DNA of 33,344 bases, from positions 1-33,344 of IMG/VR virus record IMGVR_UViG_3300031521_000228, one strand, 5' to 3'. Below, one piece after another: positions 8,328 to 24,138 of the stretch (the stretch's first letter is position 1; every line of letters starts with the position of its first letter). The DNA comes from a virus. Made by a program: the position numbers and the translations under genes. The notes under the pieces are model-generated. The model was not told where the DNA came from and made no database searches. It was given only the letters and a program-made list of their open reading frames with translations.

Positions 8328-8340
8328 AGAGGTGAGTTTA

Positions 8341-10959
8341 TTGCTTAAGCTACAGAGTTTTTTCATTTATAAATTCAATACGAGAAGACTAAAACAAGAT
8401 GGATACCGAATAAACATAAACCCATCAGAAGCTAGAAGAAATAATGAAATGGTAAGAATTGGTGACTCTAATCTTTTGGAATTTTTGAGACGGATAAAGA
8501 AACAGGAATTATTATTTCCTGAAATTAAAAAATCAGAAAATGAAATAAAGAAGATTAGAAAAAATAAAAATTCTGTCAGAGCAAAAGAACGATTAGAAAA
8601 ATTGCAATATTCGGTAGATAAGTATTTGTTTATTCCAGAGATAATTTCGGTGGTGTTTGATGATAATAGACATTATAAACATCTGGTGAATAACGGATTA
8701 TACATAAACGGAATACTTTTTAAAAGACTGTATAGCGGCGCGGGAAATGCGAGACGTTCTACAGCATTTTTTATAGACGAGAGATATTACGAAAAAATGG
8801 ATTGGTATCTGGATTGTGGTAGAAAAGAATTAACCATAAATCCAAATAAGTATAATGCCTACTATTCACTTTCATCTTCGGCAGGAACACCAATTACTAC
8901 TCCTAGATTTACGGTTATTCCAGATTTAGAAATTATAAGACTTACAAAGGTTGATTTTGTAACAGAATCCACTGGACACGGAATAGACCCGAAAATTGAA
9001 GAAAAAGAAATTCAGCAAACATTCTCTGTGTTCGATGGTCAGGGAATTATGACCCCAACCTTTGCAAATCAGATTGCCTATGATTTAGAGTTGGACTACA
9101 CCCCTAGTTCATCAATCATTCGTTCAGCTTGGGTAAAAGGACTTTTAGTTTGTTTTGACTTCAAAGAGTTTGCGAGACAAAACAACGTTTCCGAGATAAT
9201 GGATATTTACGGTAACAGTTGCAATGTTGAAGAATTGGATGTTATTCTAACAGCAAGTCAATTTAAGATGTCTTCTGGATATGATAGTTTAGAACAATAT
9301 AAAGAAGAAGTTGCAAAGAGAGATTTTCAGTGGCGAGTAACTAGACCGTCTCCGAAGAAAGATAAGAACATTGTTCAAACCAATTATCAATATTTACAGT
9401 GTTTAGATTTAGATGATAACAGCATTGAGAGATTGTGTCAACCGACAATAAATTATCTAAAGGAAGTATCGGGTCTAAAGTGGTCGTCAATTATCCTATT
9501 CCTGATTGGTTCTATGCAAAAGAAGGATATAGACAAGAAATGGTTTGACAGATTAGACCCACTCATAAAAGTGTTATTTTATGAGCCTTTGTTGATTGAA
9601 AATGGGTTTGTAAGAAACAAGATAAAGAAGATGATTTCTAAGAAAATAAAAGAATCCTATATTGGGGTTCTAAATGTTGAAGGAAATTATTCAAACATGA
9701 TTTCTGACCCTCACGCATTTTCCCAACATGCCTTTGGGTTGCCAGTTACGGGATTACTTAACAGGAGAGAATTTTATTCTAATTATTGGAATAAGAAAAA
9801 TGTCAAGAAAGTTGCTTCTTTGAGAAGCCCCCTCACTTGGAAATCAGAAATAAATGTATTGGATTTGAAAAAAAATGAAAAAGTAGATTACTGGTACAAA
9901 TATCTAACTACCGGAATTATTTACAATATTTTCGATGAAAGTGTTATGTTGCATAGTGGTTGCGATTTTGATGGGGACATCACCTGCACAACAAACAATC
10001 AAGAAATTATAAATGGTGCTTCTGGTGGCAATCCAGTAACTTATGAAAGAAAGACTGCCCCTAAGTCAGATATAGATAAGGACAAGTTGTGGGAATCTGA
10101 CATCCAGACATTCGGGGGGAAGATTGGGTTCATCACAAATATTTCTAGTACCCTCCATAGTTTTCTTTGCTTATATAATGAAAATAGTGAAGAATATAAA
10201 ACTATTGAAAATAGGTTGAAAATATTAACGGCTTTTCAGTCCATGTCAATCGATAAAGCTAAAGGTATTGCAATTATGGATTTTCCCGATTGGTGGACAA
10301 AATGGGAAAAGGGCGAAGATTTTCAAAATAAAATACTTGCAGACAAACGCCCTTATTTTTTCAAGAATTTGTATGACCACTACAATAGAGAATATAAAAA
10401 ATATTTGAGCATTTATGATACTTTCTGCATCTCTAATTATGGCTTGAGTTTGCAACAGGTAAAAGAAAAAGAGAATAGAACCAAGGAACAGGAAAACACG
10501 CTTTATTATTTGAATAGATATAATCACCTGATAGATACACCTTCGGTCATGAACAAAATCTGTCATTACATGGAGAAGGAAGTTTCTCTTTTAAAGGATG
10601 CTAGAAACGACATGAACTTTGTGTTTCAGATAGACGAAGAAAAACTAGAAAAAATGAAACTTTTATATAAAGAGTGGAAAATTCTTCGTAAAAAACACGC
10701 CCAAGATGGTGAAAGTTTACTTCATTATGAAACAAAGAGAAAGGCGGACGAAATATCAGTAAATAGTAATGAGATTGCCAAGTTGGCATTGAATGTTTCC
10801 GTTGGTTTTGCTTTCAGCGTCTTTCCTGAATATGTAGAAGGATTATATAAAAAGAAGAATGTTGAAGTTCCTGTTTTAGATGAGAATGGAGATATTAAAT
10901 TTGATGGAGAAAAATATTCTCTCATGATTTTAGACTTGGAGGAAGAGTGGCTAGAGTAA
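8341..10959 (+). CDS. Single-chain DPBB RNA polymerase (YonO/QDE-1-like)
   Basis: 872 residues. The diagnostic motif is GCDFDGD, with D542, D544 and D546 holding the catalytic magnesium as in the DFDGD loop of multisubunit RNA polymerase beta-prime and in QDE-1/YonO enzymes. Upstream, LRSPLTWKSEINVLDL resembles the RNPclhPgDir block that precedes the active site in eukaryotic RNA-dependent polymerases of this superfamily. Downstream, a long helical region continues to the end. YonO of phage SP-beta and gp66 of crAss-like phages show that phage members transcribe DNA; I infer the same here, serving later phage genes. Start: TTG at 8341 has AGAGGTGA 5 nt upstream; GTG at 8332 lies inside that ribosome site. 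It sits behind a terminator and overlaps the next gene by 13 nt. Confidence 0.8.
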   Translation: MLKLQSFFIYKFNTRRLKQDGYRININPSEARRNNEMVRIGDSNLLEFLRRIKKQELLFPEIKKSENEIKKIRKNKNSVRAKERLEKLQYSVDKYLFIPEIISVVFDDNRHYKHLVNNGLYINGILFKRLYSGAGNARRSTAFFIDERYYEKMDWYLDCGRKELTINPNKYNAYYSLSSSAGTPITTPRFTVIPDLEIIRLTKVDFVTESTGHGIDPKIEEKEIQQTFSVFDGQGIMTPTFANQIAYDLELDYTPSSSIIRSAWVKGLLVCFDFKEFARQNNVSEIMDIYGNSCNVEELDVILTASQFKMSSGYDSLEQYKEEVAKRDFQWRVTRPSPKKDKNIVQTNYQYLQCLDLDDNSIERLCQPTINYLKEVSGLKWSSIILFLIGSMQKKDIDKKWFDRLDPLIKVLFYEPLLIENGFVRNKIKKMISKKIKESYIGVLNVEGNYSNMISDPHAFSQHAFGLPVTGLLNRREFYSNYWNKKNVKKVASLRSPLTWKSEINVLDLKKNEKVDYWYKYLTTGIIYNIFDESVMLHSGCDFDGDITCTTNNQEIINGASGGNPVTYERKTAPKSDIDKDKLWESDIQTFGGKIGFITNISSTLHSFLCLYNENSEEYKTIENRLKILTAFQSMSIDKAKGIAIMDFPDWWTKWEKGEDFQNKILADKRPYFFKNLYDHYNREYKKYLSIYDTFCISNYGLSLQQVKEKENRTKEQENTLYYLNRYNHLIDTPSVMNKICHYMEKEVSLLKDARNDMNFVFQIDEEKLEKMKLLYKEWKILRKKHAQDGESLLHYETKRKADEISVNSNEIAKLALNVSVGFAFSVFPEYVEGLYKKKNVEVPVLDENGDIKFDGEKYSLMILDLEEEWLE

Positions 10960-13242: not shown

Positions 13243-13578
13243 ATGAAAGATATGGTTTATATGGAAGATTTTGTAAAAGAATTTGCTGAATATTCAAGAA
13301 TGTCGCAGAAAGATATTTCTTATCTATTTAAGAGTTTAGATTCTTTTATGAAAGTGGCAATCGAAAACCAGTGTTCAATAAGAACTCCAATTTTCGAATT
13401 ATACTACTCGGATATGAAGGGCAGGGATACCAAATTATTTGGTAAACTCCCACCCACTAGAAAGGCGAAGTTGAGGTTGGCTAATAAACATAGGCGGGGT
13501 CAGTCGTCTCAGAGTAAGATTTACAGAACAGTTTTAGAGAAAACTGAGGTTGACGAGACCTTGACAGATTACGAATAA
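13243..13578 (+). CDS. HU/IHF-like DNA-binding protein
   Basis: 111 residues. The N-terminal half has the helix-helix pattern of HU-type proteins (EYSRMSQKDISYLFKSLDSFMKVAIENQCSIRTPIFELYY), followed by a basic arm (PPTRKAKLRLANKHRRG). This fits a chromatin-like or architectural DNA-binding role, perhaps in replication or packaging. AAGGA is 9 nt upstream. The promoter for the following RNA unit begins inside its last six codons. Confidence 0.55.
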   Translation: MKDMVYMEDFVKEFAEYSRMSQKDISYLFKSLDSFMKVAIENQCSIRTPIFELYYSDMKGRDTKLFGKLPPTRKAKLRLANKHRRGQSSQSKIYRTVLEKTEVDETLTDYE

Positions 13579-13733: not shown

Positions 13734-13805
13734 GCGAAAGTAGCTCAATGGTAGAGCAAATGTTTTCCAAACATTAGGTTGTGGGTTCGAGACCCATTTT
13801 TCGCT
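13734..13805 (+). tRNA. tRNA-Gly (anticodon UCC)
   Basis: A complete cloverleaf can be drawn: acceptor GCGAAAG/TTTTCGC (one G-U), D stem GCTC/GAGC, anticodon stem AATGT/ACATT with loop TTTCCAA (anticodon TCC at 13766-13768), five-base variable loop, T stem GTGGG/CCCAT (one G-U) with loop TTCGAGA. CCA is not encoded. It reads GGA, a very common glycine codon in the genes here, which fits a phage tRNA that supplements the host supply. Confidence 0.95.
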
Positions 13806-13807
13806 CT

Positions 13808-13897
13808 AAAATGTCAGTCATAACTTTAGAAACCTTAAATGTGGTAACAAATGTGTTGACGAGAGATAGACTTTATTGGTAAGAGGACTGACATTTT
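13808..13897 (+). ncRNA. Long hairpin RNA directly after the tRNA
   Basis: AAAATGTCAGTC (13808-13819) pairs perfectly with GACTGACATTTT (13886-13897), 12 bp, followed by TTAC. The 66-nt enclosed segment holds a repeated AAATGTG and no ORF. It begins 2 nt after the tRNA, so it may end the tRNA transcript, guide its processing, or be a small RNA of its own. Confidence 0.55.
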
Positions 13898-13949
13898 TAC
13901 TTTAAAATATAAATAAAAATTTTGTAACATAGAAAGACTGGGAGAACAA

Positions 13950-14918
13950 ATGCAGAGACAACTATATATTGAATGTATGCAAAAATATAACAACGAAATA
14001 GATATTACTTGGCAGGAGTTGGCTGAAAAATATGGGATTTCTACTGGCAAAATTCTTTCAGATAGATGGCAGAGAATTAAAGATAAGGTAGACCCAATTT
14101 TAGAAGAAGATGGTGTTATGGGTGAAACTCCTTGTTTTCAGAAAAATAAAAACGCTCCGAAGATTTTAATTTTTGACATCGAGACCCATTTAAAAAATGC
14201 AAAACTTTTTAGACATGGTAAGCAATATGTGAATGCTTCTTCGTTCAGTGATTATGATTCAATGATTTGCTGGAGTGCGAAGTGGGTTGGAGACAATGAA
14301 GTTTTCGGGGATGTTCAAACTTCTACAGAGGCAGTTGAGAGAGACAATTCTAGAGTTACAAAATCTTTGTGGGATGCACTTTCAAGCGCAGACCTTACGG
14401 TTTCTCATAATGGAATAAACTTTGATTTGCCAATGGTAAACACATTTTTTATTGAAAATAGACTCGGTCTTCCGAATTTTTTCAGAAACATTGATACTTG
14501 TTCCATTGCAAGAAAAAACTTCAAATTTGAATCTAATTCATTAGACCATATTTGCAAACGGTTAGGAATCAATGATGGTAAAATGGATACATCTATTGAA
14601 TTGTGGGAAAAGTGTTACGTTGGTGAAAAAGAATCTTTGAGTTATATGTTCGAATATAACCAAATGGATGTAACTGTTTTGGAAGACCTTTATAATGTAT
14701 TTCTTCCATATATTCCGAGTTTTCCGAATTTGGGAGTTTGGGGAGATGTTACTCAGGCGAAGTGTCCTTATTGCGGAAGTACAAACTTTGAAGAGAAGGG
14801 ATATAAATATACTCCTTCAGGTAAGTTTAATTCTTATAGATGTGAATGTCAGGCTTTATTCAGAAGCAAAGAAAATCTTCTCTCTAAAGAATTCAAAAAA
14901 TTGCAAATGGTAACTTAG
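13950..14918 (+). CDS. DnaQ-like 3'-5' exonuclease with HTH and zinc ribbon
   Basis: 322 residues in three parts. Residues 1-45 look like a winged helix (ITWQELAEKYGISTGKILSDRWQRI). Residues 70-255 are an RNase H-fold exonuclease: D76-I-E78 (ExoI), HNGINFD with D159 (ExoII) and Y236-NQM-D240 (ExoIII). The C-terminus has a zinc ribbon, C272-x2-C275 ... C298-x-C300. Metal-dependent removal of nucleotides from DNA or RNA 3' ends is expected; the DNA-binding ends suggest a targeted nuclease rather than a polymerase proofreader. No polymerase is nearby. Start ATG has GGGAGAA upstream. Confidence 0.8.
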   Translation: MQRQLYIECMQKYNNEIDITWQELAEKYGISTGKILSDRWQRIKDKVDPILEEDGVMGETPCFQKNKNAPKILIFDIETHLKNAKLFRHGKQYVNASSFSDYDSMICWSAKWVGDNEVFGDVQTSTEAVERDNSRVTKSLWDALSSADLTVSHNGINFDLPMVNTFFIENRLGLPNFFRNIDTCSIARKNFKFESNSLDHICKRLGINDGKMDTSIELWEKCYVGEKESLSYMFEYNQMDVTVLEDLYNVFLPYIPSFPNLGVWGDVTQAKCPYCGSTNFEEKGYKYTPSGKFNSYRCECQALFRSKENLLSKEFKKLQMVT

Positions 14919-17237: not shown

Positions 17238-17278
17238 CAATGGGATAGAAGGTAAGTCATGAACCCTTTGACAAGTAA

Positions 17279-17308
17279 CTCCATACTTCCCATTTTTAAG
17301 TTTTGGAG
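17279..17308 (+). promoter_or_regulatory. Hairpin covering a ribosome site before the homing endonuclease
   Basis: CTCCA (17279-17283) pairs with TGGAG (17304-17308) and ACTT (17285-17288) with AAGT (17298-17301). The right arm is the GGAG that would serve an ATG at 17311. T4 endonuclease genes are known to hide their ribosome sites this way. A second GGAG (17313-17316) for ATG 17323 lies outside the stem. Confidence 0.45.
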
Positions 17309-17322
17309 CAATGGAGTTTTTA

Positions 17323-18141
17323 ATGGGGGAAAAAATATCTGGAATTTATTGTATTGAAAATGTATTAAATGGTAAAAAATATATAGGAAAAGCCTTTGAC
17401 ATATACGGTAGATGGGTTCAGCATAAATCAGCATTAACTAAAAATCGAGATAGTTTTCATCTACAACAATCTTGGAACAACAATGGAGGAGAAAACTTTT
17501 CTTTTTATATAATAGAAATATGTTCCCCCGAAACCTTGAACGAAAAAGAAAAGTTTTGGATAAAGGAATATAAAACTTTTGGATTCAATGGAATATATGG
17601 TTTTAATTTAACGGAGGGGGGAAACGGGACATCTGGATATTCTCTCACCCAAGAAACAAAAAATAAAATATCTAAAAAAAATAAGGGGAGAACTGTTTCC
17701 GATGAAGCTAAGAAAAAAATGTCAGAAAATGCTTCAAGAAAATATGGGAATGAGAATTGGATGCACGTAAACGGTCACTCTGATGAATCTAAAAAAAGAA
17801 TGTCAGATTCTAGAAGAGGAGAAGATAATTCGTTTTTCGGAAAACAACACTCAGAGGAAGCAAAAAAGATTATTTCCGAAAAAAATAAAAATCCCCCAAT
17901 GGATAAAAGGATTTTGCATTCAAAAATAATGCGTAATAAAAAAGGAAATAACGTGAGTTCAAAATATTTCGGAGTTTCTTTCCATAATAGGAAAGATATT
18001 AAGAAAAAATGGAGGGCAAAAATAGGTATATTGGGGGTGGTTGTGGAAATAGGTCATTACATGACCGAGTTAGAAGCCGCAATTGCTAGGGATGAATACG
18101 TTATAAATAATGAGTTAGATTATCCATTAAATTTTACATAA
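17323..18141 (+). CDS. GIY-YIG homing endonuclease with NUMOD3 and AP2-like domains
   Basis: 272 residues. GIY (7-9), YIG (20-22) and R30 (DIYGRW) mark the GIY-YIG nuclease, with a downstream Glu in LNEKEKFWIKEY. Next come two NUMOD3-type DNA-binding repeats (SDEAKKKMSENASRK, HSEEAKKIISEKNKN). The C-terminus (KYFGVSFHNRKDIKKKWRAKIG...HYMTELEAAIARDEY) is an AP2-like DNA-binding domain. It is free-standing: phoH upstream and the protease downstream are both intact, so no intron is implied. ATG 17311 is an alternative start with only 2-nt spacing. It would cut a phage lacking the insertion and spread itself by repair. Confidence 0.9.
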   Translation: MGEKISGIYCIENVLNGKKYIGKAFDIYGRWVQHKSALTKNRDSFHLQQSWNNNGGENFSFYIIEICSPETLNEKEKFWIKEYKTFGFNGIYGFNLTEGGNGTSGYSLTQETKNKISKKNKGRTVSDEAKKKMSENASRKYGNENWMHVNGHSDESKKRMSDSRRGEDNSFFGKQHSEEAKKIISEKNKNPPMDKRILHSKIMRNKKGNNVSSKYFGVSFHNRKDIKKKWRAKIGILGVVVEIGHYMTELEAAIARDEYVINNELDYPLNFT

Positions 18142-19118: not shown

Positions 19119-20198
19119 ATGGAAGAAGTTATTGCTAATGGGGAAGGAAAGAAAGAGGTTCCTCAAAAGAAATTAAAATTACGAAAAAATTGGAGAGTTA
19201 AGTTCACCTCTCCCACAGGGTTTTCTCTCACGGAATGCTATTGTAGACATTGCGTACAATATAAAAATCCTAAAGATTTTCAGCCTTCTTATGATTCTAC
19301 ACTTGATAAAAATGGAATGATGAGTATTTGTCGTTCCTGTTGTGAAGAAATTTATCAGGATAATCTTAGGGCGGAAAAGGATATTTCTAAGGCATTGTTG
19401 AAAACGTGTAGAACACTAAATTGGGTATTCTATTCTCCAGCAATTGAACCATCTATTGAGAAATATAAGATTGCTAGGGATAAAAATCCTGATGGTAAGA
19501 TTTTATTCACTGGAGCATATTGGACAATTGTCAATGGTACAAACAATATGAAATATTCTGAAATTCCTAGTCTTACTTTTACTGAACCTTTGAGGGAAGA
19601 TTTTATACCAAAAGAATTTATTAACGATGGTGAAATAAACGAAGAAATTATAAAGTTTTGGGGTGAAGGGTTTGAAAAGGAAGAATACAAAGTTCTACAA
19701 CAAAATTATTTAGATTTCAAAAAGGATTACACTGTTGAGGCAAAAGGGGCAGTATTAATTGTTAGAGAAATATGTTTTAAAATTTTAGAACTTGAAAAAA
19801 CTAGAAAAATTCCCGGAAGTTCTGAATCTATTCTAAAAGAAATACAAACATTGATGAAGAATGGAGCCTTGACTCCCGCTATGGCAAATATGGCTAACAG
19901 TGGACAGGCGAGAGATACTTGGGGAGTCAGAATTGCCACTATACAAAAAAATGAACCGGCAGAATGGCTTCAAGGGGAAGAACAAAGAGAAAGATTCAAA
20001 AACGTTTATGGTAGTAAAGAATATTTCAAGAATTTTTTTGTTAGAAGTCTTAAGAACTATATGTTGGGAAGCAAAGACTATTTATCAGAAGAATTATTAT
20101 CTAATGAGGATGAAGAAGAGTTGAATATTGAAGAACTCATTATTGAGGAGGATGAAGGTGGCACAGAAGAAGAATCCTCGCCCATACGGGAAGAATGA
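19119..20198 (+). CDS. Probable terminase small subunit
   Basis: About 360 residues. The ATG at 19119 is 5 nt after AGGAG; an ATG three bases earlier is also possible. Near the N-terminus CRHCVQYKNPKDF and CRSCCEEIY give a four-cysteine zinc site, as in zinc-finger small terminases and HNH-like DNA-recognition proteins. The C-terminus is very acidic (NEDEEELNIEELIIEEDEGG). It directly precedes and overlaps the large terminase gene by 41 nt. Identification rests mainly on position and the DNA-binding finger. It would recognise phage DNA for packaging. Confidence 0.65.
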   Translation: MEEVIANGEGKKEVPQKKLKLRKNWRVKFTSPTGFSLTECYCRHCVQYKNPKDFQPSYDSTLDKNGMMSICRSCCEEIYQDNLRAEKDISKALLKTCRTLNWVFYSPAIEPSIEKYKIARDKNPDGKILFTGAYWTIVNGTNNMKYSEIPSLTFTEPLREDFIPKEFINDGEINEEIIKFWGEGFEKEEYKVLQQNYLDFKKDYTVEAKGAVLIVREICFKILELEKTRKIPGSSESILKEIQTLMKNGALTPAMANMANSGQARDTWGVRIATIQKNEPAEWLQGEEQRERFKNVYGSKEYFKNFFVRSLKNYMLGSKDYLSEELLSNEDEEELNIEELIIEEDEGGTEEESSPIREE

Positions 20199-21996
20199 AT
20201 ATATAGCCAATAGTGCAAAAGTTGATAAATTTCAACAGGGTGTACCAACACTATCCGAATCTGAATTTACAAGAAGCGAAATAGATAGGATGAAGGATTG
20301 GAATACTTTATTTAGACTTTATCCTAGTTTTTTTGTTGAATGGTGGTTAGGAATTCCTTTGTTTCCATATCAAAGATATTGGTTAGATTTAATGGCGGAA
20401 AGCACTACCTTTTTAGCTGTCGCGTCAAGAGGTAGTGCCAAGTCAATGATGGTTGGTCTCTTAGCTATAGTTAAGGCAATACTATATCCCGGAATAAAAA
20501 TAACAATTGCTTCAAATACAAAGAAACAAGCTGGACTTATCATAACCCAACACATTTCCTCTTTTGAAAAACAAAGTGAAATGTTGGCGAGAGAGATTCA
20601 AAATATTGTACAAAACTCAAATGACTATAAGGTTATTTTTCATAATGGAAGCACGATAGAAGTTGTTGTTTCAGGTGAAGGTGGTCGCGGCGTAAGAAAT
20701 TCCGTAAGCATACTTGAAGAGCGGAGACTTATACCGAATGAGATTATTGATACAATTATTCGCCCATTTGCTGTAACCTATAGACCTCCTTATTTGTTTA
20801 AAAAGGAGTATTCTCACTTACAGCCAATGGAACCACAGGAATTTGCAATTACAAGTGCATATTATAAATCGTGGGAATGGTTCAAAGAAGCCGTAAAAAT
20901 ATTCAAAAAAATGGCAGATGGGGAAGAAGGTTTTAATTGTATTACTTTAGATTATCAGATAACCATGAAACATGGGATAAAATCCAAGAAACAAATGGAT
21001 TCTGAAAAACTAAAATTCGACCCAATTTCTTTTTCTATGGAATATGGAAATATTCCCTATGACGGAAGTTCAAGCTCCTTTTATAAAGTAAATATGTTTA
21101 CTAGAACATTGAAAAGAGCTTGGAGACCAATCATGGATAAGTATGCCACATCACAGAAAAATCCTTATGATATAAAAAAAGCGGGTGACGAAAAAAGAGT
21201 TATGGCGGTTGATTTAGCCATGAGAAAAGGAAAACAAAACGATATTACGGTTATAACTTGTGCTAGGTTATCCCCCACTCAAAAGGGTTGGGAAACAGAA
21301 ATTGTTTATCAAGAAACTCACTCTGGAAAGAATGCAACACTTCAAGCACTTAGAATAAAACAAATTGCGAGTGAATTTGATGCTGATGCTATTGCGATGG
21401 ACTTTGGGGCGGGTGGCAATGGTTTGGCGGTATTTGATATTTTAAGTCTACCAACTAGAGACGAAGACAGAATGAAAGAATATCCTGCTTACACTGTTTT
21501 AGAAACGACAAATGTTGAAAAGAATATTGATAAAGGTTTTCTGGAAGATTTAACTCAAAGGACTTTGGGAAGAGACGCTTTACCGATAATTTATCCAATT
21601 GTTCCATCACCACAACTAAATGCTCAGATGAGTATAAAGTTAAGGGATAGACTAAAAAGAAAGTTAATAAAGTTTCTATGCGATGATACCATTGCAGAAG
21701 AATATTTGGTTAACAGTGGAAATAAAGATATTTTTGGTGAAGACAGTGAAATTAGAGCATATCTTTTATCTCCACATGTAAATACTTCTTTGATGGTCAA
21801 TGAATGTATTTCTTTGGAGATGGTTCCGAATGCTAGTGGATTTAAATTACAAGAACCCAATGGGGCAAGAAAGGATAGATTTAGTTCTTTGATGTATCTA
21901 AATTGGTATGTTGGATTGTTGGATGGAGATTTACTCAAAGAGGGTTCAGACGAAGATGCTTTTTCTGTTTTATCTTCCTTATTTTACAGTGGATAA
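20158..21996 (+). CDS. terL: Terminase large subunit
   Basis: 612 residues; GTG at 20158 is 6 nt after GAGGAGG, better than an in-frame TTG 30 nt earlier. ATPase part: SRGSAKS (90-96) is the Walker A, ILEERR (185-190) holds the Walker B position with Glu where Asp is usual. Nuclease part: D352 (MAVDLA), D415 (IAMDFGAG) and D573 (RKDRFSSLMYLNW) give the RNase H-like catalytic triad. The enzyme cuts concatemers and pumps DNA through the portal. Intact and complete. Confidence 0.95.
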   Translation: MAQKKNPRPYGKNEYIANSAKVDKFQQGVPTLSESEFTRSEIDRMKDWNTLFRLYPSFFVEWWLGIPLFPYQRYWLDLMAESTTFLAVASRGSAKSMMVGLLAIVKAILYPGIKITIASNTKKQAGLIITQHISSFEKQSEMLAREIQNIVQNSNDYKVIFHNGSTIEVVVSGEGGRGVRNSVSILEERRLIPNEIIDTIIRPFAVTYRPPYLFKKEYSHLQPMEPQEFAITSAYYKSWEWFKEAVKIFKKMADGEEGFNCITLDYQITMKHGIKSKKQMDSEKLKFDPISFSMEYGNIPYDGSSSSFYKVNMFTRTLKRAWRPIMDKYATSQKNPYDIKKAGDEKRVMAVDLAMRKGKQNDITVITCARLSPTQKGWETEIVYQETHSGKNATLQALRIKQIASEFDADAIAMDFGAGGNGLAVFDILSLPTRDEDRMKEYPAYTVLETTNVEKNIDKGFLEDLTQRTLGRDALPIIYPIVPSPQLNAQMSIKLRDRLKRKLIKFLCDDTIAEEYLVNSGNKDIFGEDSEIRAYLLSPHVNTSLMVNECISLEMVPNASGFKLQEPNGARKDRFSSLMYLNWYVGLLDGDLLKEGSDEDAFSVLSSLFYSG

Positions 21997-22033: not shown

Positions 22034-22062
22034 TTGACAAAATTAAGATTTTGTGATAATAT
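22034..22062 (+). promoter_or_regulatory. Sigma-A type promoter for the small RNA
   Basis: TTGACA (22034-22039), 17 nt, TAATAT (22057-22062), with TGA before the -10. It is in the 168-nt gap between terL and the endonuclease; predicted start 22069 is exactly the first base of the closing stem below. Confidence 0.8.
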
Positions 22063-22068
22063 ATGTGT

Positions 22069-22134
22069 TCCCAAGAAGTTAGAGATGCAACTCGAAAAGT
22101 GTCTGCTGAACACCTGTTCTTGGGATTTTATTTT
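22069..22134 (+). ncRNA. Compact structured small RNA (or endonuclease leader)
   Basis: TCCCAAGAA (22069-22077) pairs perfectly with TTCTTGGGA (22117-22125), followed by TTTTATTTT. Inside are GTT/AAC (22078-22080/22089-22091) and GTGT/ACAC (22099-22102/22110-22113, loop CTGCTGA), giving a multi-arm fold of about 66 nt with the U-rich end expected of a terminated small RNA. The same element would be the leader of the gene at 22165 if transcription reads on. It matches no family I can name. Confidence 0.6.
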
Positions 22135-22164
22135 CAGCACTATTAACAGCAAATAGGAGATAGA

Positions 22165-22455
22165 ATGGGAAGAAGGGTTTTAACACTTGAAATTGTAAAA
22201 GAAGAAGCTAAACTAAGGGGATATAAAATACTCAGCAAAGAATTTGATGGGAGACAACACTTCGAACCTGTTACGTTTGGAGGAGTGTCAATTGAAAGAG
22301 CTAAGGAAAATTTAAAATCACAAAAGAAAAGAGATAAGGTAAAAGATAGATTCTGTAAAAATAATAATATTTGTTTAATAAGAATATCATATAAAGAAGT
22401 TGAAAAAATAGAAACGATATTATCTAAGAAGTTAAAACTCAGGAAAGTTTCCTGA
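22165..22455 (+). CDS. Small Vsr/EDxHD-like endonuclease
   Basis: 96 residues. FDGRQHFEPVTFGG, then QKKRDKVKDRFCKNNNICLIRISYKEVEKIETIL, is the pattern of free-standing phage endonucleases of the Vsr-like (EDxHD) superfamily: DGxQHFxP, RDxxKxxYCxxNxIxLIRIxY. The usual zinc-ribbon N-terminal half is absent, so it is either a minimal form or has lost its target-recognition part. AGGAGA 4 nt upstream; a stop codon in frame at 22144 rules out a longer start. It has its own promoter, leader and terminator, the signature of a mobile gene inserted between terL and portal. Confidence 0.75.
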   Translation: MGRRVLTLEIVKEEAKLRGYKILSKEFDGRQHFEPVTFGGVSIERAKENLKSQKKRDKVKDRFCKNNNICLIRISYKEVEKIETILSKKLKLRKVS

Positions 22456-22461
22456 GTTTTT
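22434..22461 (+). terminator. Rho-independent terminator overlapping the endonuclease stop
   Basis: AAAACTCAGGA (22434-22444) pairs with TCCTGAGTTTT (22450-22460), 5-nt loop, running into TTTTTAGTTT. The TGA stop is in the right arm, a compact design seen in self-contained mobile genes. Confidence 0.9.
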
Positions 22462-22476
22462 AGTTTAATAAAATCT

Positions 22477-22492
22477 TGGCAAGAAATTGCCA
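22477..22492 (+). promoter_or_regulatory. GNRA-capped hairpin in the portal leader
   Basis: TGGCAA (22477-22482) pairs with TTGCCA (22487-22492) around GAAA, a stable tetraloop, ending 10 nt before AAGGAGG of the portal gene. It may stabilise the mRNA or bind a regulator of portal synthesis. Confidence 0.5.
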
Positions 22493-22515: not shown

Positions 22516-24138
22516 ATGCCAAGAAGAAAGAAAGCAGACATTGAGGTTTTGCCAGACAATAAGCCTATAGGTTTGGAGGACGTGGACTATGTGATGCAAT
22601 TTGCTCGGTCTGCTATCTCTGGAATGTATGGACTTCCAAATGTTTATAATCCAATGGGAGTTTCCCAAAGAATGCAGGACGTAGGATTAAATCCGATAAT
22701 CGCAGAAGCGGACAAAATTGAATCTGCATTAAATAATCCGAAAGCAAATGAAAGAAATTTATCTGGATATTCCGAAGACCTGTATCTTAAAAATATGATT
22801 ATGAAGAGAATGGTTCTCTATCTTTCAAATTCGTTGTCTTGGAACTTGGACTGGGTATGTACAACCCCCGATACAAAATATGATTCTGATGCTTTTAAAA
22901 AAGATAAGGCGAGAATGATTTCTTTCTTTGATAGATTTAACATCAAAGAACAATTTACACAAATCATGCAAACGATGGTTTTGAACGAGGTCGGATTTTA
23001 TCAACTTAGGGATGATTATGAAAAAATTGCGTTTCAACAGTTACCACAACAATATTGTGAATTAACTGCTAGAAATCCTTATGGGTTTAATTTTGATTTT
23101 AATTTTCAATGGTTTTTTCAGGCTAATACCTCAATTGAAATGTATCATCCAGTCTTCAAACGACTCTACTCTGAGATATTTGATAAAGACGGAAACAATC
23201 TCTATAATCCAGCGGCTTCATTTTTAAATAGAGATAGTAGTTGGACAATGTGGGTTCAAACTAATTTAGAGGATGGTTTTTGGGCATTTAAATTACAACC
23301 ATTTATAACCTCAAGAATTCCATTTTTAGCACCATTGTTTATTGATGCTTCATTACAACCTCTGTATAGAAAACTTGCTCAAAATTCTGCCATTCAATCT
23401 GCCCAAAAGCTCCTCGTTGGACAAGTGGGATTAAATAAGGATTCAAAAGGTGGAAGTTTAGCAAATAATTTCAACATTAGTGCAGACCAGTTGGGTAAGT
23501 TTTTGCAACTTGTTCGTTCTGGAATTTCAGAAGCGATTGGTTTTACTGCGGCTCCATTGGAAAACATGGAAACACATTCTTTTGACCTTCCGGCGAGAAA
23601 CGTTCAAAGTGAAAGTAATATGATACTCGCATCCCAGTCAGGGATTTCAAGCAGACTACTCTACACCCTCGATAAGTCGAATCTGGAGGAGACGCGCAAT
23701 TCAATCAGTGTGGATGAGATGATGCTAAAAAGTGTGTACTCCAGTTTTGAGAACTTCTTAAATTTCAGGGTTAATAAAGAAACCAAAAAACATAAATTTA
23801 AGTTTATGTTAAGTGGTTTTGAATTTGACTCAAGTAAAAGAAAGGCAAGGGATGATTTCTTTCAATATGCGGGATTAGGGATATTTCTTCCCGGAAAACT
23901 TGGCGAGGCGTTGGGTGTTCAAAGATATGATGTTGAAAGAATGCTTGCGGAATCAAAAGCAGAAAAATGGGAAGATAAAGTTACCTTCATCACTCCATTA
24001 TTTCAACAGTCAAAAGAACAACAAGCGGAAAATAATGGTAAAGGTCGTCCACAAAAAAATGAAGATGACCTAAGTGAAAGTGGTTCAGAGACTAGAGAAA
24101 ATGGAGAAAATATAGATAGTAAAGGGGGTAAAATCTAA
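22516..24138 (+). CDS. Portal protein
   Basis: 540 residues, perfect AAGGAGG upstream. Portal identity rests on size, position after terL, and the typical features: an N-terminal clip/wing region, the DxxxPxxxxxRP-like long helix region (RKLAQNSAIQSAQKLLVGQVG ... SGISEAIGFTAAPLENM), and a polar, charged C-terminus (GKGRPQKNEDDLSESGSETREN) likely disordered. Twelve copies would form the ring through which DNA enters. Stop codon overlaps the next ATG (TAATG). Confidence 0.8.
   Translation: MPRRKKADIEVLPDNKPIGLEDVDYVMQFARSAISGMYGLPNVYNPMGVSQRMQDVGLNPIIAEADKIESALNNPKANERNLSGYSEDLYLKNMIMKRMVLYLSNSLSWNLDWVCTTPDTKYDSDAFKKDKARMISFFDRFNIKEQFTQIMQTMVLNEVGFYQLRDDYEKIAFQQLPQQYCELTARNPYGFNFDFNFQWFFQANTSIEMYHPVFKRLYSEIFDKDGNNLYNPAASFLNRDSSWTMWVQTNLEDGFWAFKLQPFITSRIPFLAPLFIDASLQPLYRKLAQNSAIQSAQKLLVGQVGLNKDSKGGSLANNFNISADQLGKFLQLVRSGISEAIGFTAAPLENMETHSFDLPARNVQSESNMILASQSGISSRLLYTLDKSNLEETRNSISVDEMMLKSVYSSFENFLNFRVNKETKKHKFKFMLSGFEFDSSKRKARDDFFQYAGLGIFLPGKLGEALGVQRYDVERMLAESKAEKWEDKVTFITPLFQQSKEQQAENNGKGRPQKNEDDLSESGSETRENGENIDSKGGKI

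Follow-up and report, generated by a model that had tools for sequence, protein, structure and literature searches.

Does the gap between the TerL and portal genes of the viral sequence IMGVR_UViG_3300031521_000228 encode a free small RNA, or does the RNA form the leader of the message behind it? A sequence-only reading of this DNA had proposed a promoter-driven, self-contained structured RNA of 66 nt and had suggested that it controls the neighboring endonuclease, regulates packaging or portal synthesis, or acts as an antisense RNA. In the window, by which we mean the whole 33,344-nt stretch analyzed, the gap comprises 519 nt and contains a promoter, the RNA, an ORF of 96 aa and a terminator-like hairpin; in SPBc2, TR-TP1 and similar phages the TerL-portal spacing is 13–18 nt. 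The features of the locus are as follows:

20128–21996: TerL; PHROG terminase match, tblastn relatives in SPbeta-type phages
22034–22062, + strand: promoter with TTGACA, 17-nt spacer and TG-extended TAATAT; hexamers and spacing kept in the relative G001
22070–22077, + strand: 5' strand of closing stem P1, pairing with 22117–22124; pair changes on both sides across the family
22078–22081, + strand: J12, GUUA (in the family UA before the first G of P2); alignment A13
22082–22093, + strand: P2 hairpin GAG-AUGCAA-CUC; fitted alignment, absent from the minimum-energy fold
22094–22098, + strand: J23, GAAAA (family GANAA); 24 of 25 distinct rows of A13
22099–22113, + strand: P3 hairpin GUGU-CUGCUGA-ACAC with loop L3; alignment and covariation
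22117–22124, + strand: 3' strand of P1 (P1'); fold
22125–22132, + strand: U-rich linker, taken as terminator tail by the sequence-only reading; sequence
22133–22139, + strand: UUCAGCA, pairing with UGCUGAA of L3 (22104–22110) in a proposed pseudoknot; family-wide test
22165–22455, + strand: 96-aa remnant ORF of a homing endonuclease of VSR/treble-clef type; PHROG, comparison with the 315-aa protein of G001
22434–22460, + strand: perfect hairpin with T run after the remnant ORF, likely the cassette terminator; sequence
22516–24138: portal gene; PHROG match

The identities assumed for terL and portal were borne out by the PHROG matches, and both proteins match families of large phages. The proposed mobile endonuclease downstream of the RNA holds as to its origin, but the ORF of the window is an internally deleted remnant that retains only both ends of a protein present at its full 315 aa in G001. 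Database labels are 'HNH endonuclease' in PHROG (phrog_559) and the treble-clef domain DUF4379 in Pfam; we take the protein to be of the VSR/treble-clef type, a label that is partly our own assumption. The Shine-Dalgarno (SD) sequence AGGAG of the remnant ORF is found at 22155–22159.

The extended -10 promoter described earlier is present: TTGACA occupies 22034–22039 and TG is followed by TAATAT at 22057–22062, with 10 of 12 hexamer matches. Transcription would be expected to start at P1 or 1–3 nt ahead of it. Promoter-like sites are no commoner in this region than in shuffled sequence (25 found, 25.6 expected), and therefore the promoter call rests on the comparison with G001, where the spacer has diverged in sequence but its length of 17 nt, the TG and the two hexamers are unchanged.

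The predicted closing stem (22069/22070–22077 with 22117–22124/22125) was likewise confirmed, having 9 bp in the window and 8 bp in the relative. Its pair probabilities range between 0.82 and 0.999 for the pairs checked, and ATTTTATTTT follows directly. The two inner arms fared less clearly: energy speaks against them, as the minimum-energy fold is one long hairpin of -17.7 kcal/mol and thus about 4 kcal/mol better than the three-arm fold (-13.5 kcal/mol), whereas comparison across the family described below supports them. Predicted stability appears only mildly unusual (z -1.66, with 13 of 200 shuffles at least as stable), and the 7-bp pairing between L3 and the tail is by itself not significant, being reached in 258 of 2000 shuffles. 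The data from the window by themselves could not carry the claim of a structured RNA.

In G001 (loci L002, L007 and L064), which shares 70% DNA identity with the window, this RNA occupies the corresponding position. The two sequences are identical over 61 nt (22070–22130), starting with the first base of P1 and reaching the U tract, and this is the longest exact match between the contigs; the next-longest run anywhere is 40 nt, and outside the leader no 61-column window in the aligned block exceeds 54 of 61. The 40-nt run lies at window 13510–13549, at the end of ORF 13243–13578. Such identity could in principle stem from a recent regional exchange together with the endonuclease, i.e. homing co-conversion, irrespective of any function of the RNA, and indeed a mobile endonuclease adjoins the element and conservation runs on to the start codon. 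The sequences flanking the identical RNA, namely the promoter spacer immediately ahead of it and the endonuclease immediately behind it, have nevertheless diverged, as have the neighboring genes, and the same fold recurs with unrelated sequences. We consider this explanation extremely improbable.

Searches by sequence similarity returned little beyond these two alleles. Scanning viral contigs with exact 18-mers and with degenerate patterns detected only the two, five other contigs among nine being chance occurrences in coding sequence; a 16-mer scan listed 31 contigs, the others unrelated, a 22-mer scan of genome contigs gave none, and Blast searches for the RNA in phages and plasmids gave chance matches only. 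A first descriptor scan was barely above shuffles, with hits in 7 of 91 endonuclease loci, three of them already known, compared with 10 of 273 for the shuffles. In cmscan against Rfam 15 (4227 families) at the curated threshold the window matches only tRNA-Gly, at E ≤ 10 the element region shows four unrelated chance matches only, and 10 and 14 further member loci gave no Rfam family.

Recurrence became apparent at the level of structure. A portal-profile search yielded 29 loci, 26 of them new, and among 23 terL-portal junctions only L072 has the element, with a VSR-type endonuclease between terL and portal and a leader ahead of it that differs in sequence but follows the same plan. Further leaders of VSR-type endonucleases repeat it, with P1, UAG, P2, GANAA, P3 and P1' in this order and, downstream of these, a segment that can pair with L3. 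After 17 of 91 leaders had been left out as duplicate, too short or without start codon, 12 of 74 VSR-type endonuclease leaders reached scores of at least 22, compared with 1.5 per dinucleotide-shuffle set. Structural seeds were selected by eye and hand-aligned. A first model (R1) was built from six such seeds without the RNA at 22070 and run on 81 sources, namely 79 of 91 endonuclease loci (12 duplicate contigs left out), the window and L064. It recovered its six seeds and four sensible held-out sites, two of them in L105 (position 1285, E 0.11; position 2127, E 0.18) and two in the window itself:

1393–1461, + strand: third copy, 19 nt before the ORF of a DEAD-type helicase (1481–2965); R1 held-out site, E 0.026
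17239–17294, + strand: second copy, 16 nt before the ORF of a GIY-YIG endonuclease (17311–18141); R1 held-out site, E 0.0013

The other seven R1 matches, with E values from 0.5 to 8, look like chance. At default filters the search of the 81 sources did not list the RNA at 22070; with filters off and 141 nt searched, this RNA was the best of 5 matches, at the right place and on the right strand (11.6 bits, E 0.0034). A covariance model from 11 seeds, the window RNA included (R2), was then applied to 79 loci fetched solely by GIY-YIG protein similarity, the duplicate of the window (L207) being left out. It gave 11 matches in 8 distinct groups (near-duplicates are L209/L210, L220/L236 and L208/L211), all on the + strand, with E values from 3e-5 to 0.0044 and ending 19–64 nt before the endonuclease start. 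A twelfth match lay on the opposite strand with E 0.48, and in a control of 54 other loci (497 kb) the best E value was 0.093. Whole-record searches added the members L202, L199 and L205.

Among named phages, weak matches (E 0.01–0.3) in SPBc2, TR-TP1, PMBT24, phiCDIF1296T, Perkons, Goe21, WRP3 and CB457P1 lack the UAG/GANAA core, as do further weak matches in G008 and G330. Since the core is missing, we regard all these weak matches as chance, so that the named phages searched include no cultured carrier and none is yet known. R2 on 291 genomes of one class, a weak search, returned none at E ≤ 0.005; in the genome-record search the copies of the window at 1393 and 17239 went undetected, so its empty answers are weak. 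The literature searched, including Weinberg 2010 and Fremin 2021 as far as their available text without supplements goes, held no description of the motif. By its sequence and fold the window RNA thus appears to belong to a previously uncatalogued phage RNA family absent from Rfam 15.

The members follow a common plan, in which P1', the 3' strand of the closing stem, is followed by a U-rich linker and the segment pairing with L3. Alignment A13 has 26 rows, 25 of them distinct; all 25 distinct rows contain UAG and 24 contain GANAA. Paired cells amount to 93.4%, compared with 42–50% in slid controls, and 13 of 14 pairs show changes on both sides among the distinct rows. As A13 was fitted to the model, these counts lean towards the structure, and more weight falls on the independent hits. 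The window RNA shows the order P1-UA-P2-GANAA-P3-P1' with covarying stems, J12 carrying a two-base insertion relative to the UA of the family, and its L3 forms the 7-bp pairing of 22104–22110 with 22133–22139 within the spacing of 5–15 nt 3' of P1'. In the family the partner of L3 begins 5–15 nt, mostly 9–13 nt, after P1'. This loop-tail pairing is not part of the covariance model. For 11 non-seed members, comprising one of each near-duplicate pair as well as L202, L199 and L205, the summed pairing score was 83.5; shuffled tails gave 62.1 (sd 5.5, maximum 80.5) and tails swapped between members 55.8 (sd 6.0, maximum 70.5), with 0 of 300 reaching the observed value in either control. Automatic pairing picked partners that differ from our reading by eye in L110, L112, L157, L205 and the window copy at 17239. 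Conserved fold, covariation, loop-tail complementarity and the position before genes are thus computed results of this analysis.

Other VSR-type endonucleases are preceded by a sister plan (L119 1919–1973, L120 1709–1774, L131 1917–1974) with the order P1, GACA, P2, P3, UUA and P1', in which the loop of P3 pairs at or next to the SD and GANAA is absent. From their sequence these leaders possibly represent a second class.

Genes behind the element encode VSR-type and GIY-YIG endonucleases, the DEAD-type helicase at window 1393, an endonuclease VII-like protein (L205) and a protein of unknown function (L202). Most members were found via endonuclease genes, hence the association with endonucleases is biased and partly due to ascertainment. 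In L199 (1501–1640) a TTGACA/TATAAT promoter is followed by a hairpin with T run, with no ORF directly behind; this RNA may exist without a gene. Several contigs carry more than one copy, namely three in the window, three in G003 and two in G004. In most members the partner of L3 ends 13–30 nt before the start codon, in the window RNA 25 nt before the AUG, and the SD is not covered. The copy at 1393 differs in that its partner is the SD itself, with ACUCC of L3 pairing with GGAGU, and it has its own promoter, TTGACA-17-TGGTAATAT. At 17239 either the SD or the start codon can be covered by the partner, and in L112 and L157 alternative pairings cover or touch the SD or start region. Occlusion of the SD as in a T4-type leader is accordingly a property of the 1393 copy and not of the RNA at 22070. 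A promoter score of at least 9 directly ahead of P1 was found in 8 of 22 members compared with 165 of 4400 random positions, so in those eight the RNA should begin at P1; the remaining 14 may perhaps be transcribed from upstream. Together with G001 these data support a structured RNA with its own promoter.

Should such a transcript start at about 22069, end in the U tract after approximately 66 nt and act in trans, it would be a free small RNA. The window RNA has the promoter this implies, ATTTTATTTT directly follows P1, many members show a U-rich stretch at this place, and L199 has no ORF directly behind. On the other hand, the conserved partner of the P3 loop, in the window 22133–22139, sits 3' of the U tract, so that the pairing needs sequence beyond the supposed terminator, which does not bear out a self-contained 66-nt RNA. 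Several members (L179, L112, window 1393) have no T run after P1. No + strand terminator was called at the U tract, although the scan admitted only loops of 3–8. Members also keep a short distance to an ORF, which argues for a cis-acting leader, and no target was better than those of shuffled cores. We judge the free small RNA improbable. Antisense action in particular found no support: the best duplexes in the two contigs, with the RNA's own antisense strand set aside, reach -31.0 and -29.7, compared with -25.4 to -31.0 for shuffled cores. The packaging RNA of phi29 is likewise small, three-armed and adjacent to packaging genes, and a role in packaging or portal synthesis had been suggested. 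The present element has no Rfam match, and its members are not tied to packaging genes but precede endonucleases, a helicase and others, L072 being the one junction of its kind noted above; we rejected a packaging RNA for its gene company. The put RNA of HK022 is a cis-acting processive antiterminator, and a structured RNA with which phage transcripts begin, and which occurs in several copies per genome, might by analogy act in the same manner. Here a strong terminator-like hairpin of its own (22434–22460) closes the cassette, and we consider antitermination very improbable.

Invariant junction letters between variable stems, as well as several copies per contig before different genes, would suit a switch whose UAG/GANAA core recognizes either a metabolite or some phage protein and thereby sets the pseudoknot and the expression of several genes. 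The genes behind the element share no pathway and no ligand can be inferred; we regard a switch as unlikely. In the accessible part of PMC2864571 the manA and wcaG motifs are riboswitch candidates and likewise conserved structured RNAs before phage genes, but their motif differs from the present one, for which cmscan with the full set of Rfam 15 families gave no match. The topology itself points to a further explanation, in which junction and L3-tail pseudoknot block attack by RNase J or at the 5' end and thus stabilize the downstream mRNA as in flaviviral xrRNAs. According to the text available of PMC5760640, xrRNAs form a three-way junction whose L3 engages a downstream segment in a long-range pseudoknot, and RNase J1 was halted in vitro by a flaviviral xrRNA. 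The phage family shows the same described topology, with L3 pairing with a segment 3' of P1, and in 8 of 22 members P1 lies where transcription is expected to start. In contrast to the xrRNAs as far as PMC5760640 describes them, the phage elements are 5' leaders with a different junction sequence and no sequence relation. The second xrRNA contact, between the sequence 5' of P1 and the junction, has no recognized counterpart, as in 26 rows read by eye no letters 5' of P1 are conserved. Protection of the 5' end is in our view unlikely, and quite improbable in the stricter form that the family is the phage counterpart of xrRNAs, a ring-like junction and pseudoknot mechanically stopping bacterial RNase J at the 5' end of the mRNA. 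If this were true, selected phage genes, above all mobile endonucleases, would obtain a decay-proof message.

Because the partner in the pseudoknot lies beyond the supposed terminator, the element is best read as a cis-acting leader and not as a free 66-nt RNA. We favor, with fair though limited confidence, a structured leader of the endonuclease mRNA, which here encodes a degenerate enzyme, belonging to an uncatalogued phage RNA family. Placed at the front of endonuclease messages, the folded RNA probably serves to control them rather than working as a free small RNA. In such a leader transcription would start at the foot of P1, and the RNA would fold into a three-way junction of P1, P2 and P3 with the invariant UAG and GANAA. 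P3 would lie back along P1 while L3 captures a segment 5–15 nt downstream of P1, and the resulting pseudoknot would sit just upstream of the SD of the next gene. The pseudoknotted domain could then restrain or time the downstream gene, mostly a mobile endonuclease, by impeding the access of ribosomes to the start site next to it, by fixing the 5' end of the mRNA, or by both. Ribosome exclusion may well be the active step, though we hold this with a little less than even confidence.

Control of the endonuclease is thus the best of the three functions suggested by the sequence-only reading, given that other homing endonucleases have this element ahead of them as well. A restraining or timing effect of the domain on expression we infer from its position and from T4-like phages, in which leader RNA structures hold down or delay translation of homing endonucleases according to the available part of PMC2988022. 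The leaders of T4 I-TevI, I-TevII, I-TevIII and segB and of Aeh1 mobE, as described there, resemble the present element as RNA structures before homing endonucleases with a presumed hold-down function. They differ from it in being local hairpins over the SD, whereas here a three-way junction with a pseudoknot is usually placed off the SD and is common to unrelated endonuclease classes and a helicase. As the leader of the window is intact beside a degenerate endonuclease, it would either have survived the loss of an intact enzyme or the enzyme would have decayed recently. If our reading is true, one shared, portable leader serves mobile genes and the phages harboring them alike as a means of setting expression. 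With about 70 nt the fold is small, and it has invariant letters, a testable pseudoknot and a topology as in viral exonuclease-blocking RNAs, so that a few in vitro assays could separate translation control, mRNA protection and ligand sensing.

Some further features were noticed. A hairpin TGGCAA-GAAA-TTGCCA lies ahead of the portal gene at window 22477–22492, within a 26-nt run exactly shared with G001 (22467–22492). Another candidate for a structured intergenic RNA is located at window 13808–13910 on the + strand, between tRNA-Gly (13734–13806) and the ORF at 13950. It has a 12-bp closing stem (AAAATGTCAGTC/GACTGACATTTT) and no Rfam match; in G001 (L064, about 9490–9600) its interior is largely kept, with stem changes on both sides. 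TerL of L089 and L094 is interrupted by sequence that, judging by its hallmarks, resembles a group I intron, and L116 likewise looks like a group I intron by its sequence hallmarks. Window 8332–10959 encodes a protein of 875 aa that matches the RdRP family PF05183 and that we take to be akin to the phage RNA polymerases of the YonO type.
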